From positions 1 to 20,071 of IMG/VR virus record IMGVR_UViG_3300021957_000423: a stretch of DNA of 20,071 bases; one strand, written 5' to 3'. The notes under the pieces are model-generated. The model was not told the DNA's origin and made no database searches. It worked only from the letters and a program-made list of their open reading frames with translations. Below are positions 3,049-20,071 of the stretch, piece by piece. A program made the position numbers and the translations under genes. Each line of letters opens with the position of its first letter. Position 1 is the stretch's first letter. The stretch comes from a virus.

Positions 3049-4038
3049 TTATGAATAGATCCAAATATCTCCACCGGTATCTACCTTAATATTTCCGTTT
3101 TTTTGGTATTCACTATTGTCTGCATGATTGCTATTACTTAAATCTACAACTGCAGAAGCATAAGCTGTTGTATTTGCTGTAGTTGCTGTACTATTTACTG
3201 ATTCATTGAAACCCCATCTAGTTATACCAGCATCTGCTTCATATATAAGAGCGTGCCCTGTTCCTGAGCCTTCATCTATTACAAGTCCTCCTTCATCTGG
3301 ATTGGCTGATCCAGAATTTAAAAGAATAAATCTATCTTCTACTAATAAATTTTGAGTATTTAATGTTGTAGTAGTACCATTAACGACTAAATCTCCACCT
3401 ACTGTTAAGTTATTGGAAACTGATACGTCATTTGGTAATCCAACAGTTACTGCTCCACCACCACCTACGGTTGTAAAAGTATTTGTTGATAATTCGATTT
3501 CTCCAGCTGTTCCTAAGAAAGTTACACCAGTATTACCTTCTGCTGCTGTTCCTGCTGTTGATCCATAATCTACTGATAATACGGTTCCGCCACCACCGGA
3601 TAAACCTGTACCTGCTACTGAAGTGTTTAGCTGTGTTTCGGTAATTCCACCGTCTATAACTGCTACTGTTACTGTATTTCCTGCTGCTGCAGTAGAAATT
3701 GAATTTCCTGATGCAACTGTTAGGTCTTCTGTTAGTAAGTCTATAGTGATATTACCAGTTGAACCTGTTAAGTTTAATTCTGTTACAAGTCCAGTTAAGT
3801 TACTACCATCCCCTTGAAAAGAACCGCTAAAAGATCCAGATAAGATTGAAGCAGCACCTGTCGAAGTTATAATTGAAGTACCTAACCCTAATGTTGATCC
3901 ATTATAAGTAATACCTGAGCTTTCAACTGCGCCTCCAGTTCCTGCTACCAGTATGTTATCGTTAGTAAGTACGGATGAGGTAATCGATGCTAAATGAGCA
4001 TCCGATCCGCTTACTATTATCTTTTTCCAATTTGCCAT
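3049..4038 (-). CDS. Fibre / virion structural protein with NWKK-IVSGSDA N-terminus (329 aa)
   Basis: This 329-residue protein begins MANWKKIIVSGSDAHL, paralogous at the N-terminus to the 256-residue protein downstream. A GSFSGSFQGDGSNLTGL segment (about residues 68-84) matches the fibre motif in that paralogue. The middle is very rich in Gly, Thr and Ser with repeated short beta-type strands. Near residues 220-245 lies VVNGTTTTLNTQNLLVEDR, a segment I recall from many uncultured phage fibre proteins. No enzymatic residues are evident. It probably forms a tail fibre or capsid decoration with a common attachment module. It has its own 34-base leader carrying a TATTTATA element, so it may start a transcription unit. 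Confidence 0.75.
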   Translation of the reverse strand: MANWKKIIVSGSDAHLASITSSVLTNDNILVAGTGGAVESSGITYNGSTLGLGTSIITSTGAASILSGSFSGSFQGDGSNLTGLVTELNLTGSTGNITIDLLTEDLTVASGNSISTAAAGNTVTVAVIDGGITETQLNTSVAGTGLSGGGGTVLSVDYGSTAGTAAEGNTGVTFLGTAGEIELSTNTFTTVGGGGAVTVGLPNDVSVSNNLTVGGDLVVNGTTTTLNTQNLLVEDRFILLNSGSANPDEGGLVIDEGSGTGHALIYEADAGITRWGFNESVNSTATTANTTAYASAVVDLSNSNHADNSEYQKNGNIKVDTGGDIWIYS

Positions 4039-6458: not shown

Positions 6459-7600
6459 TATCCTACGTGTATAGTCATTGGTACCTGGGAAAGAGTAGAT
6501 CTTAGGAAGTCAGCCTCTTGTGATTGTGCTTCCATTTGTGCTCCTCTTGATGTTTCACCTAACATCTCTCTCAAATTAGTTATTAATGCTTCTTTTTCTG
6601 TTCTTGCATCAGTTAATAAGTCAGCTTGATTAAGAGTAGCTTCTGCTCCTGGTACTGGTACTGTTTGGTATTTACCTCTTATGTATGCTAGTAATTCTTT
6701 TGCTAAAGCTAATGAATATTTGTATATCCACTGTCTACCTACACTATTAATATGTGAGTATGTCGGGTTATTATAGGGCACTTCTGCTACATTAGTAATA
6801 GTATTGGAAGCGTTATTAAAATTTATTGCTGATTTATCATTTGATTTATAGTATTCAAATATTAAAGTACCGTCTACGTTAGGAACTGGGAATAATTTTA
6901 ATTTATTATTTACTAGTTCAAAAGTAAATGTAGATTTTCTAATCTGATCATTAAACTCTATTGCTTGAGTCTTTAATATATCATAAGAAGCAGGCATTAA
7001 CATAAAATTAACACCGGGACTCATATTACCAAACCCAAATTGATCCATTAATGAGTGAGTACCTGTACCAGTACCTGCATAAGGGTCAAAATACCTTTGA
7101 ATAGCAGGTGGTGCTTCATAAAAAACTCTTCTTATTTCTATTCCTCCGTCTATTCCTTTATCAGATGCCCATGAATCTAAATCATAGTTCTGTATAGAGC
7201 CAGTTATATCTAGTGAACCTGAGTATTTAGTGACATTACCTCCTACTCCTGCTTCTGTACCATAATTCTTAGCTATCTGTACAAATCTATTGATATTTGA
7301 TTCTATTAATTGATTATTTACTGAGCTTCCTGTTGGAGCACCTTCTAAGTTAAGGTAATTCTCTCTAATCTTATATTGGAAGATTTCATTACCGTAAGTT
7401 GTAATAGCTTCTTCAAAACAGGCATAAAAAGATCCTGATTGTAGCTCTACATCCATTAACGGGTACCCTAAACGAGTAGCACAAAAGCTTGCAACTTTAT
7501 CTGCATCAGTAGCGAAGTTTGTATCGCTGTCATAAAACCCAAAAGGAGTCTGTCCTGAAGAGAAAGAGCTTGTTCCGTTCCAAATACTTGTATTAGCCAT
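6458..7600 (-). CDS. gp13: gp13-like neck protein
   Basis: This 380-residue protein resembles T4 gp13, which sits at the head-tail junction after packaging, but is longer than T4 gp13 (about 309). The N-terminal part (30-75) carries a helix around RLGYPLMDVEL and FEEAITTYGNEI. The best marker is the C-terminal helix-turn: WIYKYSLALAKELLAYIRGKY then TVPVPGAEATLNQADLL and a charged helix EKEALITNLREML (about 285-345). I recall this combination from gp13 homologues of marine T4-like phages. Another feature is KLKLFPVPNVDGTLIFEYY around 230-250. It opens a four-gene run with 99-aa, gp14-like and gp15-like genes. The start has an AT-rich element 15 bases upstream and no Shine-Dalgarno. Confidence 0.75.
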   Translation of the reverse strand: MANTSIWNGTSSFSSGQTPFGFYDSDTNFATDADKVASFCATRLGYPLMDVELQSGSFYACFEEAITTYGNEIFQYKIRENYLNLEGAPTGSSVNNQLIESNINRFVQIAKNYGTEAGVGGNVTKYSGSLDITGSIQNYDLDSWASDKGIDGGIEIRRVFYEAPPAIQRYFDPYAGTGTGTHSLMDQFGFGNMSPGVNFMLMPASYDILKTQAIEFNDQIRKSTFTFELVNNKLKLFPVPNVDGTLIFEYYKSNDKSAINFNNASNTITNVAEVPYNNPTYSHINSVGRQWIYKYSLALAKELLAYIRGKYQTVPVPGAEATLNQADLLTDARTEKEALITNLREMLGETSRGAQMEAQSQEADFLRSTLSQVPMTIHVG

Positions 7601-11217: not shown

Positions 11218-11739
11218 TTATGCAGATGCTGCAACTGCGCCTGCAATTTCTGCTCCTACTACAGCAATGTCTCTACCTTTTAAAGCGGCTTTGACTGCTG
11301 AGATTGTAGCTGTTGCTACGTTTGCTCCTCGTAGAGCATTTAGAGCACCTATTCCTGCTTTTACACCCAATCCTGCTAACATAGCAATAAATAATCCTTT
11401 AGCAACTAAGTCTCTCTTTTTTTGGTCTCTTATAAATGGTTTCATAAAGCCACTAATCGCTCTTACTATATTAACTTCATTATTATGAGCCCATTTATGT
11501 ATTGCGTCTGCTTTATTTGCTGCTTTTTCTAAACCAAGCTTTTTAAAACCTTTTGCAGCATATTTACCGAGTATATCTAGAACTGTATTAGAGGCTAGTG
11601 CCCATGATAACACTCCAACTGTTGTAATAACTTCATTGACGTCTCCTTCTTCTCCAAATTCTCCTTCTATTGCTTTGGCTAATTCAGCTCCTAATTGAGT
11701 TTCGTCACTTTCTAAAATAAGTTCAGATAATGTTATCAT
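11218..11739 (-). CDS. Hydrophobic protein between protease and scaffold, possible prohead component (173 aa)
   Basis: The 173-residue protein starts MITLSELILESDET, which contains LILE-S, a good match to the Leu-x-Glu cleavage rule of T4-type prohead proteases. The second half is Ala/Gly-rich and hydrophobic (LFIAMLAGLGVKAGIGALNALRG, about 115-140, and the last 35 residues), with a basic patch FIRDQKKRD before it. T4 places small prohead core proteins near gp21, so this may be a core or internal head protein analogous in position to them, though without recognisable similarity. An alternative is a membrane protein, since the apolar segments could span a bilayer. Its start overlaps the protease stop (TAATG), suggesting coupling to gp21. 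Function unconfirmed. Confidence 0.7.
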   Translation of the reverse strand: MITLSELILESDETQLGAELAKAIEGEFGEEGDVNEVITTVGVLSWALASNTVLDILGKYAAKGFKKLGLEKAANKADAIHKWAHNNEVNIVRAISGFMKPFIRDQKKRDLVAKGLFIAMLAGLGVKAGIGALNALRGANVATATISAVKAALKGRDIAVVGAEIAGAVAASA

Positions 11740-12317
11740 TATGCTCTTAATATATCGTTAATAATAGAATCTAGATTATTGTATTTAGAAACAATCGTTT
11801 TTCCTTCTTGCAAAGATATAGGATTCATAAATGCTCCATGAGTAGACGGATTAGATACAAAGTCCCAACATACTAATTCAAAGTCTGGTTGTACCTCTAA
11901 AGTGCCCTCATTAGTTTGGTTAACTGATCCTGTACCTCTGGATGAAATACCTATTGTATGTCCTGCTTTTATTATTTCCTTTACTATATTTCCTGCTGGT
12001 GTGTTTAGTAGTTCTACACGTCCCATAAGGTCGTTTCCTTTCCACCATAACTCTTTTACTATATGAGAGGCGTTCTTTAAGGAGACAATGGGAGATTCAG
12101 GGTGATCCAGTTCTCCGAATGCATTGCCGTTCTTGACAAACTCGTCCATGTATTTTTTAGATTCTCTTTCTAATATAGCCTTACTATAGGTTCTACCATT
12201 TTGGTTTTTTGATACTGCTCTTTGCATAATACCTTCAACCTCATATACTCCCGGTTTCTCTTTTGATTCCCTTAGTATAGAGTTAAATGGTGTTACTTCT
12301 ATTAATAGTTGTGCCAT
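11739..12317 (-). CDS. gp21: Prohead core protein protease (gp21-like)
   Basis: This serine protease degrades the scaffold and trims head proteins during maturation. The expected catalytic residues are present: His72 in GELDHPES, Ser125 or Ser126 in GISSRGTG, and Asp152 in CWDFVSNPS. The N-terminal half has the family segment RTYSKAILERE (42-52). At 192 residues it is close to T4 gp21 (about 212). LRE17-S and LQE-G near the C-terminus resemble its own substrate motif and could be self-processing sites, as happens in T4. The gene starts one base after the 722-residue gene stops and overlaps the 173-residue gene, so it is embedded in the prohead operon. No Shine-Dalgarno precedes the ATG. Confidence 0.95.
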   Translation of the reverse strand: MAQLLIEVTPFNSILRESKEKPGVYEVEGIMQRAVSKNQNGRTYSKAILERESKKYMDEFVKNGNAFGELDHPESPIVSLKNASHIVKELWWKGNDLMGRVELLNTPAGNIVKEIIKAGHTIGISSRGTGSVNQTNEGTLEVQPDFELVCWDFVSNPSTHGAFMNPISLQEGKTIVSKYNNLDSIINDILRA

Positions 12318-12318
12318 G

Positions 12319-14487
12319 TTATTTGGTTTTACTTTCTCTTAATGTTCCATTTAAGGGTGCAGAAAATACAGTTTCCTTAGCTGGTTCTGCTTCTCCTAAA
12401 GGTGTTTCACCTGAGTTATGCCTGTCTATATCTCTTTGAGATATTACTTTAACTTTTGGTTGATCCAAACCTTTTGTAAACCCTACTTTAGTAACCGGTC
12501 TTAAGTCTTTATTGAAAGCTGATTCAATAGAAGGAGCTAAAAATCCTCCTACTTTTAATCCTTCTTCGTTTCTTATGTCTCCTAAAGTGTTATATACTCT
12601 TTGGATTTTAGTTCTAGTTTTATCGTAATAAGCTTCTATATCTGTAACTACATCCTGTAGTTGTATAATAGCTGCTTTCATACCTTCAAATCCACCATAC
12701 TGTTCAGCAAACTTTGCTAATTCATTTGTGGCAGCTTCGTTGATTACTTGCTCTTCTAATACTTTAGATATAATTGCTTTAATATTCTCTTTTACGATCT
12801 CATCTTTGCCCATTGATTTCTTAATAGCTGCGTCTTTTGCTGCCATATAATCATCTCCGTCTACATCTCCGTCTCCGTCATGATCTTTCCCTTTCTTTTC
12901 ATCTACCTTTGGTACTCCATCATCATGTCTATCCAATTCTGGACCATGCATAATATCAACTCCTAAATTATAATGCTCTCCTATAGCATATATTACTTCT
13001 TCTGCTTCTTCTGCTCCTGTAGTATCGTTATTTTCAGCTCTATCTTCTATAAGAGCTATAAATTCTTGTAAACTACCTACTCTTTCATTTACTACTACTT
13101 CAGCTTCTTCTAATTGTTTTCTACTTGGATCAGCTCCTTCATTAAAGCTAACTAAAGTTTTCTTTATAGCTTTTTTAAAGTTTCTTAAATGATCTAACGC
13201 TTCTGCTTTATCTTTTTCTTGTATTGCATCTATAGCATAAGATAAGTGACTTCCTTCTGAATGGTAATTTACGTCTTCAAATGAATCAAATAGTGCTTGT
13301 AATGTCTGTAACGGAGTATTAAGTCTTACTTTTAAACCATATTCTAACATTCCTTCATAATCAAACTCTTTTGAAAACATATCTCCAGGTTTGAAAGCTT
13401 TTACAACCTTATCTTCTTGTCCATATTTTTCTATATCTTTCATCTGTTGATCAGACATAGCTTCTTGCTTTACATCTCTAGCTGCTGCTTTATATTTAAC
13501 AGCATCACTTCCTCCAGTTTCTGGTTGTTTATTACCTTTTCTATCAACTCCCATTACTTCGGGTATATCAGTATTGATAGTTTCATACTCATCGTAGTTA
13601 CTCCATACGTCGTTAATATCATTAAAATCTATATCACCGCTAAAGATATCATCTTTATGAGTTTTAAGGAAATCAATTGCTTCTTGATTACCTACTTTAT
13701 AGCCTGAATCTGGATGACCTACAATGGTTAAAAAGTCTATAATTTTTCTCATAGCCATTTTTCTATCGTGGTTAGAAGCTCTTTCTCCTGGAACGCCTGG
13801 TTCAGTAGGAATAGGGTCTGCTTCTTTAATACCGTGAAGGTTTTTATACCAAGCTTTATATTCTGGGTCTCTATCTAAGTTAGCTAATAACTCTGGAGCT
13901 AATGAATCTAATCCGTGATCGTCTACTTGCTGTACAGCTTTTTCTGCATCGTCTGGATCTTCTACATATTTTAAAATAATATCACGTAAAGCATCGAAAC
14001 TCTCATCATCAAATGCTGTTGGTACTCCAGCTTCTTCTTTAAGTTCAGCTTTTTTCATACCATTAAAAGTATCTACCTCATTTCCTTTTTTTACTTCCAC
14101 TGGTTTGTCATGCTTATCTACTTTAGAAGATTCTCCGGAAAGTAAGTTTAAGTAGTGTAATGGGTCTTTTAATAGATTACTAACAGCCTTTTCTTTTGCT
14201 TTTACTTGGTCTTCTTCTGATACTTTATCTTGAGACATACGTCCCATAGCTTCAAGTTCAAAATCTGTTCCTCTTCTTATTGCTTCATCAGAAAGGTTGT
14301 GTGGCTTTTCTTCAGCTTTTTTAGCATCAGAAATCATACCTTTTGTTTTTAAGATTGATACAGTATCTTCAAATCCATTGAATTGAGATATTAAATTTGG
14401 CCATGCCATGCGAGCATCTCTAACGAATTGTGTCTTGTTGAACGTTTCGTTTAGTACTCCTCTATATTTTTCAGTTAACGTTTTCAT
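12319..14487 (-). CDS. Large prohead-region protein with EF-hand-like loop (722 aa)
   Basis: I do not recognise this 722-residue protein. It is charged, mainly helical and without signal peptide or membrane segments. Residues 535-546 form a textbook EF-hand or dockerin-type calcium loop: Asp at positions 1, 3, 5, 7 and 9, Gly at 6, Val at 8 and Asp at 12, followed by a helix YMAAKDAAIKKSM. Leu-x-Glu motifs (LNE14-T, LGE-A near 699) could be gp21 cleavage sites. It sits directly upstream of the protease with one base between them, and its ATG overlaps the 73-residue gene by 17 bases. From context I infer a prohead core or internal head protein, possibly ejected or processed. Large proteins with this loop at this locus occur, from memory, in uncultured marine myoviruses. 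Confidence 0.8.
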   Translation of the reverse strand: MKTLTEKYRGVLNETFNKTQFVRDARMAWPNLISQFNGFEDTVSILKTKGMISDAKKAEEKPHNLSDEAIRRGTDFELEAMGRMSQDKVSEEDQVKAKEKAVSNLLKDPLHYLNLLSGESSKVDKHDKPVEVKKGNEVDTFNGMKKAELKEEAGVPTAFDDESFDALRDIILKYVEDPDDAEKAVQQVDDHGLDSLAPELLANLDRDPEYKAWYKNLHGIKEADPIPTEPGVPGERASNHDRKMAMRKIIDFLTIVGHPDSGYKVGNQEAIDFLKTHKDDIFSGDIDFNDINDVWSNYDEYETINTDIPEVMGVDRKGNKQPETGGSDAVKYKAAARDVKQEAMSDQQMKDIEKYGQEDKVVKAFKPGDMFSKEFDYEGMLEYGLKVRLNTPLQTLQALFDSFEDVNYHSEGSHLSYAIDAIQEKDKAEALDHLRNFKKAIKKTLVSFNEGADPSRKQLEEAEVVVNERVGSLQEFIALIEDRAENNDTTGAEEAEEVIYAIGEHYNLGVDIMHGPELDRHDDGVPKVDEKKGKDHDGDGDVDGDDYMAAKDAAIKKSMGKDEIVKENIKAIISKVLEEQVINEAATNELAKFAEQYGGFEGMKAAIIQLQDVVTDIEAYYDKTRTKIQRVYNTLGDIRNEEGLKVGGFLAPSIESAFNKDLRPVTKVGFTKGLDQPKVKVISQRDIDRHNSGETPLGEAEPAKETVFSAPLNGTLRESKTK

Positions 14488-14692
14488 CTAGATAATCAAA
14501 CATTTTAGTGTTATGTGGTCTTTTTTTTGTTTTTACAGTCTTATAACCTAACTTCTCAGCCTGCTTTGTAGCTCTATTTTTCTTATTCCCTTTGCTAAAA
14601 GCAAACGGAGTTTGGTATCCTGCTACTCCAGAGGTGGAGCTAAGTTCTTCAATAACTTCCTTTATAGCCTTTACAATCACGCTACGTTTCAT
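14471..14692 (-). CDS. Small basic protein in prohead cluster (73 aa)
   Basis: This 73-residue protein has an N-terminal amphipathic helix (VIVKAIKEVIEELSS), then GVAGYQTPFAFSKGNKKNRA and a Lys-rich stretch (KLGYKTVKTKKRP). T4 has small prohead core genes (67, 68) between portal and protease, and this gene occupies the same place, though I see no direct sequence match. It is chained to both neighbours by ATGA (4-base) and 17-base overlaps, which favours a real, co-translated gene. It may be a head-assembly or DNA-binding internal protein. Function unknown. Confidence 0.7.
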   Translation of the reverse strand: MKRSVIVKAIKEVIEELSSTSGVAGYQTPFAFSKGNKKNRATKQAEKLGYKTVKTKKRPHNTKMFDYLDENVN

Positions 14693-17504: not shown

Positions 17505-19079
17505 TTATAATAACCAAGATATATCTTCTGGTTCACCGGTGCCATAATCTATAAGATAAGGATTATTTTGTTGGGAACCAACTGATCTCATGATTCCTTT
17601 GTTTTGAGCGTTTAAGTTCTGAAATGAGGATAGTTGAGCTCTAGCTAAGTCCATTCCTTGTTGTCTGAGTCTTAGTGCTGTATCTCTTACATATAATGCT
17701 GTAGCGCAGGATATTAGTAAATCATCATTGTAGTTAATTTGTGCTTGAGGTTTTCCATTTTTCCAAACAAATACTCTCATTTCACCGATAAGTCTTTTGG
17801 ATTGTATAGTTACTCCTCTTTCTCTTATATACTCTATCATTTTAGCAATTACTAAAGGTCTTGTTCTAACCGACATAGTAAAACCAGGTACTAATTTATC
17901 TCTCTCATACTTAGTCATATAAGACTCTACTGTTTCCATTTGAGAGGTTGAACTATAGTACAGGTTGCTATACTGTCTTTCCATTATCTGTTCGATAGTA
18001 GCCCATCCAATATTAGCATTTTCAACTACTAATAATGCTTGATTATATTCTGTTGCTATTCCTACTAGTACATTACCGTAATCTTTAGGAGATAACTTAC
18101 CTTTGTATTCTCCTACTTGAGTACAAGTCTCAATATCAAATATATGAAATGCAGAATAATCTGCTGAGTCTCCTCTAGCAACATCTGCTACTACCATATA
18201 TGATTTAGTATAATCTACACCTTCCCAAATCCATAAATTAGTATCTACTCCTCTTTTTTCTAAAGGTTCTTTTAAATATGTCTGTTCGTAGAACATCATA
18301 TCATCTGGTTCGAATACTGTGTCACCGGATGCTAAAAAATCACAATCACACTCTTGTCCTGCCATTCGAGGTCCTAAATCTTGATCTTGTTGATCTCTCC
18401 ATTCCTGGTTTCTTTCAGGATGTACTGTCCAGGGTAACTTAATAGGTAGAAAACTATTTTCACCTGATTCTGCTTTATCCCAAGTTTGGTGAAACCAGTT
18501 ACCTATACCGTTGGGGGTTGATAAAGCCATACATTGCCCACCTGTTGCTAATGTTTGTTGTGCTGCTGTAAACGTTTCTTGAATGTTATCAATAAAGGCT
18601 GCCTCATCGATAAGAAGTAGTGATACTGCCTCTGACCTTGCAGCGTCGGCGTTAGAAGATTTTGCTGTAATTTTAGACCCATTTTTTAACCTTAAAGATA
18701 GTTTATTTTTTTCTACTGCAGGTAATCTCAACCACTTAGGTAGTTGGTCATACATAAACATAGTTTTAGATACTAAGTTTCTCGCAGTAGCTTGAGTTGT
18801 TGCTAAAGCAAGTACGTTCTTATCTTTATGAAATAACATAAGCCACAGAGAGTAACCTGCAGCTAAAGTAGATATACCTAACTGTCTTGACTTAAGAGTA
18901 ATTAAATATTGATGATCTCTAAATAAATGTAATACTTTATCCTGAAATGGATATAAATTAAACAGTATACGACCTCTTGTAGGATGCTGTATATAACAGT
19001 ACTTCCTCATGAAGTATGCTGGATCTTTAGCACACTTGATGTACTCTTGTGCTATTATCTTTTTAATATCTTTTGCCAT
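17505..19079 (-). CDS. terL: Terminase large subunit (gp17-like)
   Basis: This 524-residue packaging motor couples ATP hydrolysis to DNA translocation and cuts the concatemer. ATPase domain: a Walker A-like KSRQLGIST (63-71), Walker B LLLIDEA (154-160) with Glu159 as probable catalytic base, and the coupling motif ALSTPNG (185-191). Nuclease domain (RNase H-like): Asp299 in ADVARGDSADYS, Glu353 in VVENAN, and an Asp at 452 or 453 in YNDDLLISCA, matching the Asp-Glu-Asp triad of T4 gp17. It is somewhat shorter than T4 gp17 (610 residues). The Walker A lacks the usual Gly-Lys-Ser/Thr lysine, having Ile instead, with a Lys at the start of the motif. It starts two bases after the preceding gene; no small terminase is seen in the window. 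Confidence 0.97.
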   Translation of the reverse strand: MAKDIKKIIAQEYIKCAKDPAYFMRKYCYIQHPTRGRILFNLYPFQDKVLHLFRDHQYLITLKSRQLGISTLAAGYSLWLMLFHKDKNVLALATTQATARNLVSKTMFMYDQLPKWLRLPAVEKNKLSLRLKNGSKITAKSSNADAARSEAVSLLLIDEAAFIDNIQETFTAAQQTLATGGQCMALSTPNGIGNWFHQTWDKAESGENSFLPIKLPWTVHPERNQEWRDQQDQDLGPRMAGQECDCDFLASGDTVFEPDDMMFYEQTYLKEPLEKRGVDTNLWIWEGVDYTKSYMVVADVARGDSADYSAFHIFDIETCTQVGEYKGKLSPKDYGNVLVGIATEYNQALLVVENANIGWATIEQIMERQYSNLYYSSTSQMETVESYMTKYERDKLVPGFTMSVRTRPLVIAKMIEYIRERGVTIQSKRLIGEMRVFVWKNGKPQAQINYNDDLLISCATALYVRDTALRLRQQGMDLARAQLSSFQNLNAQNKGIMRSVGSQQNNPYLIDYGTGEPEDISWLL

Positions 19080-19081
19080 AA

Positions 19082-20071
19082 CTACTTTGCTTTGTAATCA
19101 CACATTATATGTGATGGGTACAATTTGCCTTGTTTGTTTCTGATATTGATTTTAAACCTATACTTTTCAGATTCAAAAACAATGTCTATTCTTTTACCAG
19201 TACCTGTTTTACCGCCGTATTGTATCTCTATACCAGATATAGGTTCCGATGCTTGTTTATTATATTCATCACCAACGAAGAAAAATTCAGTCTTCTTACC
19301 TCCTTTTAGCATAAAGTACCCTGTACCTATACCGCTTTCAACTAAATTAAATAGTTTTTCTTTATCGTAATCATTGGTGGCTTTGTGGTATTCTGTAAAG
19401 TTGGTACCTGTCTTATCTTCTCTATATTCGTTGAAAACTCTACAGAATAATTCATTATCAATTCCAAAGGTCTCCAGTAGTGCTACTCCATCAGGTGTAT
19501 CTATTTTTCCGTCTAGAAAATCATCTTTTGGGAAAACACTGACTGCTACACCTGCATTAAAAAATGTTAGAGTTCCACCGTACTTTAAAGAAAGGTATAT
19601 TTTCTCTGCCCCTTTAATTATAGTTAAATCTGTTAACGTAGCAGCTATATTCTCTCCTGTGAATCCTACTATTGGACCTTTCTCTGTAAATGTTAAAGGT
19701 CTTCTTTTATTCTCGCCGCCTTCATTTTTAACATTAAAGTTAGTAGAGGTTAAAGAAAATTCTTCTATAATAGATTTAGTTAATTCTGAATGTATATAAT
19801 CTTCTATGCCATCTTTGAATTTATTTAAATCTTGAGCAATTTCTTCTTCAAATTTTAATCCTTTACTATTTGCTCCTCTACCTCCTCTTGAACCTTCTCC
19901 AAAACTTATAGAAAGACCATTCCATTTAATGAATTCATTAACATCTTCTATTTCAATACCTAATCCTTTTTCTAAGTGTGCTATAAACTCTCTATTGGTT
20001 TTTAAACTCCTTGTTATTTTAGGGCTATTTTTCTTATTAGGATCTAATGCTATTGGTTCATTTATTTTTAA
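19082..20071 (-). CDS. Unidentified protein, possible PD-(D/E)XK-like nuclease, 5' end outside window
   Basis: The frame is open from the right edge to a TAA at 19084-19082, giving 329 visible residues; the N-terminus is missing. An internal ATG at 19312 is not the start, because the same frame continues upstream with normal coding character. Features: a Gly/Arg-rich loop SFGEGSRGGRGANSKG (56-71), then a charged helix FEEEIAQDL (74-82), TLTDLTI (145-151), KIYLSLKYGGTLTFFN (157-172), and a C-terminal IRNKQGKLYPSHIMCDYK. A Glu helix followed by Asp148 and a strand with S-L-K163 resembles the layout of PD-(D/E)XK restriction-type nucleases, with Ser in place of the usual acidic residue. That is a tentative reading. 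It is packed two bases upstream of the large terminase, where T4 has the small terminase gp16, but it does not look like gp16. Confidence 0.75.
   Translation of the reverse strand, partial: LKINEPIALDPNKKNSPKITRSLKTNREFIAHLEKGLGIEIEDVNEFIKWNGLSISFGEGSRGGRGANSKGLKFEEEIAQDLNKFKDGIEDYIHSELTKSIIEEFSLTSTNFNVKNEGGENKRRPLTFTEKGPIVGFTGENIAATLTDLTIIKGAEKIYLSLKYGGTLTFFNAGVAVSVFPKDDFLDGKIDTPDGVALLETFGIDNELFCRVFNEYREDKTGTNFTEYHKATNDYDKEKLFNLVESGIGTGYFMLKGGKKTEFFFVGDEYNKQASEPISGIEIQYGGKTGTGKRIDIVFESEKYRFKINIRNKQGKLYPSHIMCDYKAK

Follow-up and report, generated by a model that had tools for sequence, protein, structure and literature searches.

A candidate head-packaged nuclease encoded next to the large terminase gene of uncultured T4-like phages

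What is the function of a gene that stands in the small-terminase position of an uncultured phage and encodes a protein of a different kind? We addressed this question for a stretch of viral DNA of 20,071 nucleotides (IMG/VR record IMGVR_UViG_3300021957_000423), referred to here as the window. In the window terL, which encodes a gp17-like large terminase recognized by family matches (17505..19079, minus strand), starts two bases past the stop codon of a gene that we call X (19082..20071, minus strand). The X reading frame is open to the window edge and gives 329 amino acids without a start codon. A sequence-only reading of the same DNA had described a gene of at least 329 residues two bases upstream of terL, which the ORF coordinates bear out, and had proposed a restriction-type or DNA-processing nuclease, possibly coupled to packaging, or else a defense or anti-competitor gene, and had noted that the gene was not like gp16. 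The last point is supported as well: X matches no small-terminase family, and a small terminase was rejected, the only matches being phrog_8438 and two sub-threshold Pfam rows.

Conservation of X

X matches phrog_8438, a family with no assigned function, with an E-value of 1e-67 over profile positions 95-419 of 419. Homologs of X were found in 24 phage records and 22 close IMG/VR loci, and a profile scan with X returned 192 relatives, 80 of which were kept for analysis. We conclude from these matches that X is a conserved protein and not a chance frame. In relatives that are 96-97% identical over the shared part the full-length protein has 399 amino acids, therefore the window copy lacks the first 70 residues and covers residues 71-399 of 399, with its 5' end beyond the window. 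The missing 5' part was thus recovered as the full length seen in relatives, while the leader of the window's own copy lies outside the window; two loci that are 100% identical (L006 and L007) are likewise truncated there. In a search for cellular relatives 28 stretches were matched in genome_contigs and none was confirmed.

Predicted fold and invariant residues

We examined an AlphaFold2 model of an X relative (L025; mean pLDDT 87.1, pTM 0.64). The best VIA-align match of this model is HinP1I (2fkc_A; Z 9.2, rmsd 5.0, 206 aligned residues), followed by 1ynm (Z 8.3) and MspI (1sa3_A; Z 7.7, 182 aligned residues), and since Z-scores of 7-8 can arise by chance according to the tool's own warning, the nuclease claim rests on the fold matches, the motif and the secondary structure together. 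Every one of the VIA-align rows 1-31 is an established PD-(D/E)XK enzyme, and the structural matches include Hjc and RecU. The structural search was positive with VIA-align, which places these enzymes on top, and negative with Foldseek alone, which gave no match in the PDB at E <= 0.001 (the best was Hjc, E 0.095). In a viral library the model is closest to a homolog from phage S-CAM1 (E 7.2e-26), with the remote relative A0A218MMS7 next (19% identity, E 6.7e-13). PDB searches by sequence, with X or with the profile of a payload cluster described below (C0), found no solved nuclease, and PADLOC gave no defense match for X.

The sequence-only reading had pointed to a Glu-helix, D148 and S-L-K163, all of which are present. 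The corresponding full-length residues E145, D218, S231 and K233 are invariant in alignments of 10 and of 36 X homologs, and 29 members of the larger alignment are only 32-41% identical; the conservation of D148 and K163, on which that reading depended, therefore holds throughout. E145 (E75 in the window, 19847..19849, minus strand) lies inside model helix 140-156, D218 (D148, 19628..19630, minus strand) lies immediately N-terminal of model strand 219-223, and S231-L-K233 (S161-L-K163, 19583..19591, minus strand) belongs to model strand 226-234. This order, read off the DSSP secondary structure, of a helix with E145 and a strand pair with D218 and S231-K233 is as in PD-(D/E)XK enzymes. X carries Ser where the last motif of these enzymes usually has Glu or Asp, and other variants of this motif exist, such as Gln for Glu in BtgZI (PMC4081073, in excerpt). 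A HinP1I/MspI-type active-site variant was considered as a parallel and dropped, as the excerpt of PMC4081073 describes MspI otherwise.

At the C-terminal stretch RNKQGKLYPSHIMCDYK (window residues 311-327, 19091..19141, minus strand), which had looked conserved from the letters alone, the residues N379, R381 and P389 (full-length numbering) are invariant. The Gly/Arg loop GSRGGRG (window residues 60-66, 19874..19894, minus strand) is a low-confidence loop within the least confident block of the model; in the 36-homolog alignment it is kept in one X branch and replaced in the cyanophage-type branch. The invariant residues and the PD-(D/E)XK matches of the model support the proposal of a restriction-type nuclease. 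Judging from sequence and model, X is most likely a PD-(D/E)XK-type nuclease; we consider the nuclease fold very likely and catalytic activity likely.

Genomic neighborhoods of X

We examined the loci around X homologs. All 22 close loci have TerL after X: in 13 it comes directly, and in nine about 600-630 bases separate the two. In one of the nine (L019) this gap holds a 191-amino acid ORF (7011-7586) with a hydrophobic N-terminus and no family match, and a gap of similar size is found in eight more close loci. Among isolates the window TerL is best matched by that of the Flavobacterium phage immuto group, at 76% identity, which suggests a Bacteroidetes host.

Distant X loci are organized differently. 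In three annotated cyanophages the X homolog lies between uvsX/gp41/mazG genes and gp61/nrdA. Across the 57 distant loci L038-L094 no TerL or portal gene was found in the DNA examined around X; gp41 lies upstream on the same strand in 32, a DUF6267 gene (PF19782) lies downstream in 44, and a cytidylyltransferase-like gene is present in 38. It is in one clade only that X stands near terL. The suggestion that X acts as a terminase partner coupled to packaging is not supported, given the distant loci without TerL and, near terL, the conservation of the leader and exchange of the nuclease (see below). Both the cyanophage surroundings and the upstream gp41 genes would suit an intracellular DNA-processing nuclease, involved in junction resolution, recombination or host DNA breakdown, with a leader serving, for example, in docking to a phage protein; the presence of Hjc and RecU among the structural matches points in the same direction.

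A leader shared by unrelated payloads

In relatives from the window clade the nuclease is preceded by a leader of about 41 amino acids that ends in LxE/A (the slash marks the junction). Immuto gp193, encoded two genes before terL, resembles X only over the first ~35-54 residues. A scan with gp193 returned 21 loci, and in six of these (L112-L117) the match is confined to residues 1-41 to 1-49, at 78-90% identity. In immuto-like Flavobacterium phages a related leader, encoded a few genes before terL, is found on five other payload clusters. We kept 80 of the 214 relatives from a leader-alignment scan and left one truncated sequence (L188) out of clustering; the 79 usable payloads form five single-linkage clusters of 40, 20, 10, 6 and 3 members, with X as the sixth. 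TerL lies downstream in 63 of the 79 clustered loci and is absent from the DNA examined of the other 16.

A G-E, D, E-x-K pattern is found in payloads of clusters C0, C2 and C3, C1 payloads have E, D and S-L-K as in X, and C4 payloads have a less certain D and S-I-K; four of the five clusters carry PD-(D/E)XK motifs, and one is less clear. An alignment of 27 C0 payloads, with a mean column identity of 27%, has only G120, E123, G145, D146, E155, K157 and P297 as fully invariant residues. A C1 model built from 11 sequences (pLDDT 75.6) was matched by VIA-align to 3ndh (Z 9.1), SfiI (Z 8.6) and BglI (Z 8.5), and the best 50 rows listed are all PD-(D/E)XK enzymes. Foldseek alone found nothing for the C1 model in the PDB at E <= 0.001 and did not rank restriction enzymes first. 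The leader in this model consists of two low-confidence helices (mean pLDDT about 50-58), after which residues 37-40 and 42-51 have a pLDDT under 50; the leader region of the X model has a pLDDT of 72-84.

Common descent of X with C0 or with C1 is unsupported by hhalign (Prob 0.8 and Prob 0.5, respectively). C0 pairs with C2 (Prob 81.5) and C3 (Prob 88.9), and C1 scores only Prob 2.1 with C0 and Prob 0.4 with C4. Nine payload proteins searched against Pfam and PHROGs gave no named family, the strongest row being phrog_25124 (function not assigned; E 0.00048, residues 3-68 of L128). PADLOC returned a single weak row for the payload of L118 (CARF, E 0.0082).

Payload exchange between closely related phages

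In order to compare payloads between close phages we considered pairs of loci whose TerL proteins could be compared over at least 300 amino acids. Different payload clusters are found in 375 of 597 pairs with TerL identity of at least 95% and in 32 of 106 pairs with at least 99%, and within C0 identical residues cover less than 30% of the payload in 63 of 88 pairs at the 95% level; the pairs are related, so these counts overstate independence. The DNA of L125 and L176 is 95.6% identical up to about codon 30, has no detectable similarity in the payload, and becomes 96.3% identical again from the last codons onward for 2.5 kb. The same pattern is seen for L143 and L175, with 88.7% identity in the first stretch past the gene. 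Unrelated payloads are swapped cleanly between the leader and the stop codon. The most similar TerL proteins of an X locus and a non-X locus are 87% identical (L021 and L177), therefore the exchange involving X is older and not recent.

Candidate capsid-targeting signals

The T4 genes ipII and ipIII, read from NC_000866, both encode proteins that start MKTYQEFIAEA. The first 10 residues of IPIII suffice as a capsid-targeting sequence (CTS), residues 4 and 7 being important in targeting and residues 8 and 10 in processing, and T4 CTS fusions have packaged EcoRI and staphylococcal nuclease (PMC9026906, in excerpt); T4 Alt is cleaved after ITE (PMC5694885, in excerpt). Some distant X homologs start MLSFSEYLSE/AYD, MLKFKEFLSE/AYD (after MGS) or MQTFKQHLNE/AT, and the 10-residue T4 pattern (aromatic residues at 4 and 7, Ile/Leu at 8, Glu at 10) is clear, for example, in L056, L057, L060, L070 and L083. 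The window-clade leader is longer than the T4 CTS and does not have this pattern. We counted the motif [FY]xx[FYHLW][LIVMF]xE in 401 non-redundant ORFs near distant X genes. With its start within residues 2-7 it is found in 42 of 2406 positions versus 53 of 85,789 elsewhere, a 28-fold enrichment that is real in direction, with a p-value (2e-45) that is too good because the motif was picked post hoc and many of the ORFs are homologous.

In the X proteins of relatives all 24 distinct E-type junctions have a hydrophobic residue two positions before E (P3); the junction search asked for E or M followed by A or S and left the hydrophobic residue free. Ten leaderless homologs have Met exactly before the same Ala, four of them with an in-frame non-ATG start a few codons upstream, and the S-RSM4 homolog starts at the same junction. 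Ten X N-termini are without a junction: eight of the cyanophage type, one misread ORF (L076) and one truncated sequence (L094). Packaging is therefore not general for the X family, given the leaderless homologs and the cyanophage-type branch. In the other leader family [LIVMF]xE occurs within residues 39-54 of 53 of the 54 distinct leaders, whereas 1000 shuffles averaged 33.6 and reached 45 at most. The presumed processing enzyme, a gp21-type prohead protease, is encoded in the window itself (11739..12317, minus strand; phrog_207, E 4e-54; PF03420, E 1.1e-35).

Other genes at these loci have similar starts, and the enriched motif itself is found on the DUF6267 and cytidylyltransferase-like genes beside X. 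The DUF6267 gene after distant X genes often starts CTS-like (MKRFKQYIAE, MIGFKEFIVE), and such genes lie at L061:7095-8330, L049:7080-8321, L071:7381-8610 and L002:13029-14228; its KxDG motif looks like a nucleotidyltransferase/ligase motif, and its product may also be packaged in the head. Genes similar to cytidylyltransferase/NMNAT near distant X genes (L049:8823-11609, L040:8778-10166, L065:6882-8108) have the CTS-like starts MRRFLELIE, KNFSQYLSE and MKSFFQFLGE, which suggests a head-internal NAD-related enzyme. A series of small genes that precedes terL and surrounds the protease gene (ORFs 64697-68300 of G001, a 99-kb contig that includes L203-L207, and immuto gp184-gp204) encodes helical N-termini ending in LxE or EVLAE (for example MTRERLTEIIKEVLAE, MKKSQIVKAVQEVLEE), and the products may form an entire group of prohead-core or internal proteins. 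In the window, two ORFs beside head genes (14471-14692 and 11218-11739, both minus strand) have the leader-like starts MKRSVIVKAIKEVIEEL and MITLSELILESD. Two further window ORFs (1990-2760 and 3049-4038, minus strand) have a common N-terminal module (MPNWKKLIVSGSDANLNSL, MANWKKIIVSGSDAHLASI), which recurs in structural genes of G001 and immuto (MATWKKLVVSGSD, MPSWKKVILSGSN) as a constant front with a variable back.

Proposed mechanism and alternative explanations

We propose that X is probably an allele of a polymorphic nuclease cassette that is packaged in the head, delivered with the genome and exchanged by recombination. The leader, of about 41 amino acids in the window clade and of the 10-residue T4 type in some distant relatives, would direct the protein into the prohead core, and the prohead protease would cleave it after the hydrophobic-x-E site. 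The mature PD-(D/E)XK nuclease would be packaged with the genome, enter the next host with it, and cut non-self DNA there, be it the chromosome of the host or a rival phage or plasmid. One nuclease would be exchanged for another by recombination between the leader and the DNA past the stop codon, both of which are conserved. We infer the targeting and cleavage steps from the T4 precedent together with the sequence evidence, and delivery, catalytic activity and the target of X likewise stand as predictions of this scheme. There is good reason to expect that X is packaged through its leader; that it cuts host or competitor DNA after delivery is a tentative proposal, as is the conflict role that we prefer for X where a defense or anti-competitor gene had been suggested. 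By extension, T4-like phages of aquatic bacteria may each carry in the head, and deliver with the genome, a restriction-type nuclease drawn from a large recombining repertoire, which would destroy unprotected DNA in the cell.

The intracellular DNA-processing role raised above by the neighborhoods of distant homologs, and favored too by the ten homologs without a leader, is unlikely for X: the leader is common to unrelated payloads and the payload is swapped between close phages, unlike a housekeeping enzyme, and the leader terminates in a site of the prohead-protease type. For the leaderless homologs such a role may well be right.

It is improbable that the leader-nucleases are head-completion or packaging nucleases with the role of gp4 in T4. 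A T4 gp4 homolog has an REase fold and a DNase activity needed for packaging (PMC7824862, in excerpt), T4 gp4 is unmatched in immuto, in five immuto-like contigs and in the window-clade contig G001, and the leader-nuclease gene is near terL in the immuto-like group. Against this, the X and T4 gp4 profiles are dissimilar (hhalign Prob 0.1) and S-RSM4 carries both X and a gp4 homolog (48% identity), on which grounds X was rejected as a gp4 ortholog, and an essential assembly part would hardly be swapped among unrelated families at 99% identical TerL. Still less probable are non-catalytic nuclease-fold decoys or inhibitors of host defenses, which the Ser that X has at a normally acidic position would allow, and which would be injected like T4 Ip1-3, inhibitors of Type IV restriction enzymes with only the leader in common (PMC12373910, in excerpt), as catalytic-type residues are invariant in the 36 X homologs and, with two Gly and a Pro, are the only invariant ones in the 27 diverged C0 payloads.

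Self-protection

Under the preferred reading of X as an injected nuclease we looked for DNA modification genes. In immuto (L198:18607-37015) QueC, QueD, QueE, QueF, FolE and DpdA are annotated, a set for 7-deazaguanine DNA modification. Relatives of DpdA are present in 5 of 18 related records, two of the five being only 29% identical, and absent from three window-clade contigs, which are fragments; on these counts 7-deazaguanine was rejected as a general means of self-protection. Methylases of PF01555 and PF00145 were found in none of 16 records each, mostly fragments, and these two families do not cover all methylases, since S-RSM4, searched whole, gave none and yet has an annotated cytosine methyltransferase. 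A Mom-REase fusion predicted in jumbo phages is an example of a phage nuclease with modification-based self-protection (PMC7824862, in excerpt).

Implications

Nucleases were fused to a targeting leader by hand in T4, and the phages described here appear to load nucleases into the head in nature, with one nuclease replacing another like an allele. If this is true, they have a viral equivalent of polymorphic toxins, with closely related phages injecting different DNA-cutting weapons, and a leader followed by a swapped payload is a genomic signature from which injected effectors can be read. New specificities for cutting DNA would also come from the cassettes, and conflict at entry, between phages or between phage and host, would have a model that can be tested. 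From the N-terminal motif one can derive a rule by which head-internal proteins of uncultured T4-like phages are predicted.

Comparison with known systems

X shares its predicted fold with the Type II restriction endonucleases HinP1I and MspI. Unlike them, it is predicted to be carried by a phage and has an extra N-terminal region; it has no detectable sequence similarity to them, and no partner methylase was found. T4 gp4 is, as predicted for X, a virion-related nuclease with an REase fold (PMC7824862, in excerpt), but its profile is unrelated to that of X and both genes coexist in S-RSM4. Immuto gp183 (L095:2106-4829, 907 amino acids, annotated as an NMN adenylyltransferase) looks from its sequence like several fused enzyme domains, in the manner of polyvalent proteins. 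The polyvalent proteins of phages and conjugative elements are also predicted to be injected with the invading DNA and to act in conflict (PMC5512222, in excerpt); they are multidomain, whereas X and the payloads are single nucleases behind a leader. Polymorphic toxin systems likewise acquire diverse C-terminal effectors via recombination (PMC3482391, in excerpt), but they are bacterial and have their own trafficking, unlike the phage leader-nucleases. In the excerpts of the open-access literature consulted we recognized no report of a natural set of capsid-targeted nucleases.

The closest known system is that of the T-even ip loci, which encode IPI, IPII and IPIII in T4. The T4 internal proteins are injected with the DNA (PMC12373910, PMC3012670, PMC9026906), and Ip1-3 each block a distinct GmrSD enzyme (PMC12373910), according to excerpts of these papers. 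In both systems, as far as the same excerpts describe the T4 loci, a short N-terminal leader is common to proteins that are unrelated beyond it and differ from one related phage to the next, and in both the leader ends at a hydrophobic-x-E site. The T4 payloads are small blockers of restriction enzymes, whereas the payloads described here resemble restriction-type nucleases, and the window-clade leader differs in length (about 41 amino acids) and sequence. Packaging has been shown for the T4 proteins and is predicted for X and the other payloads. The leader-nucleases may themselves be members of the internal proteins; that their cassettes work like internal-protein loci is well supported.
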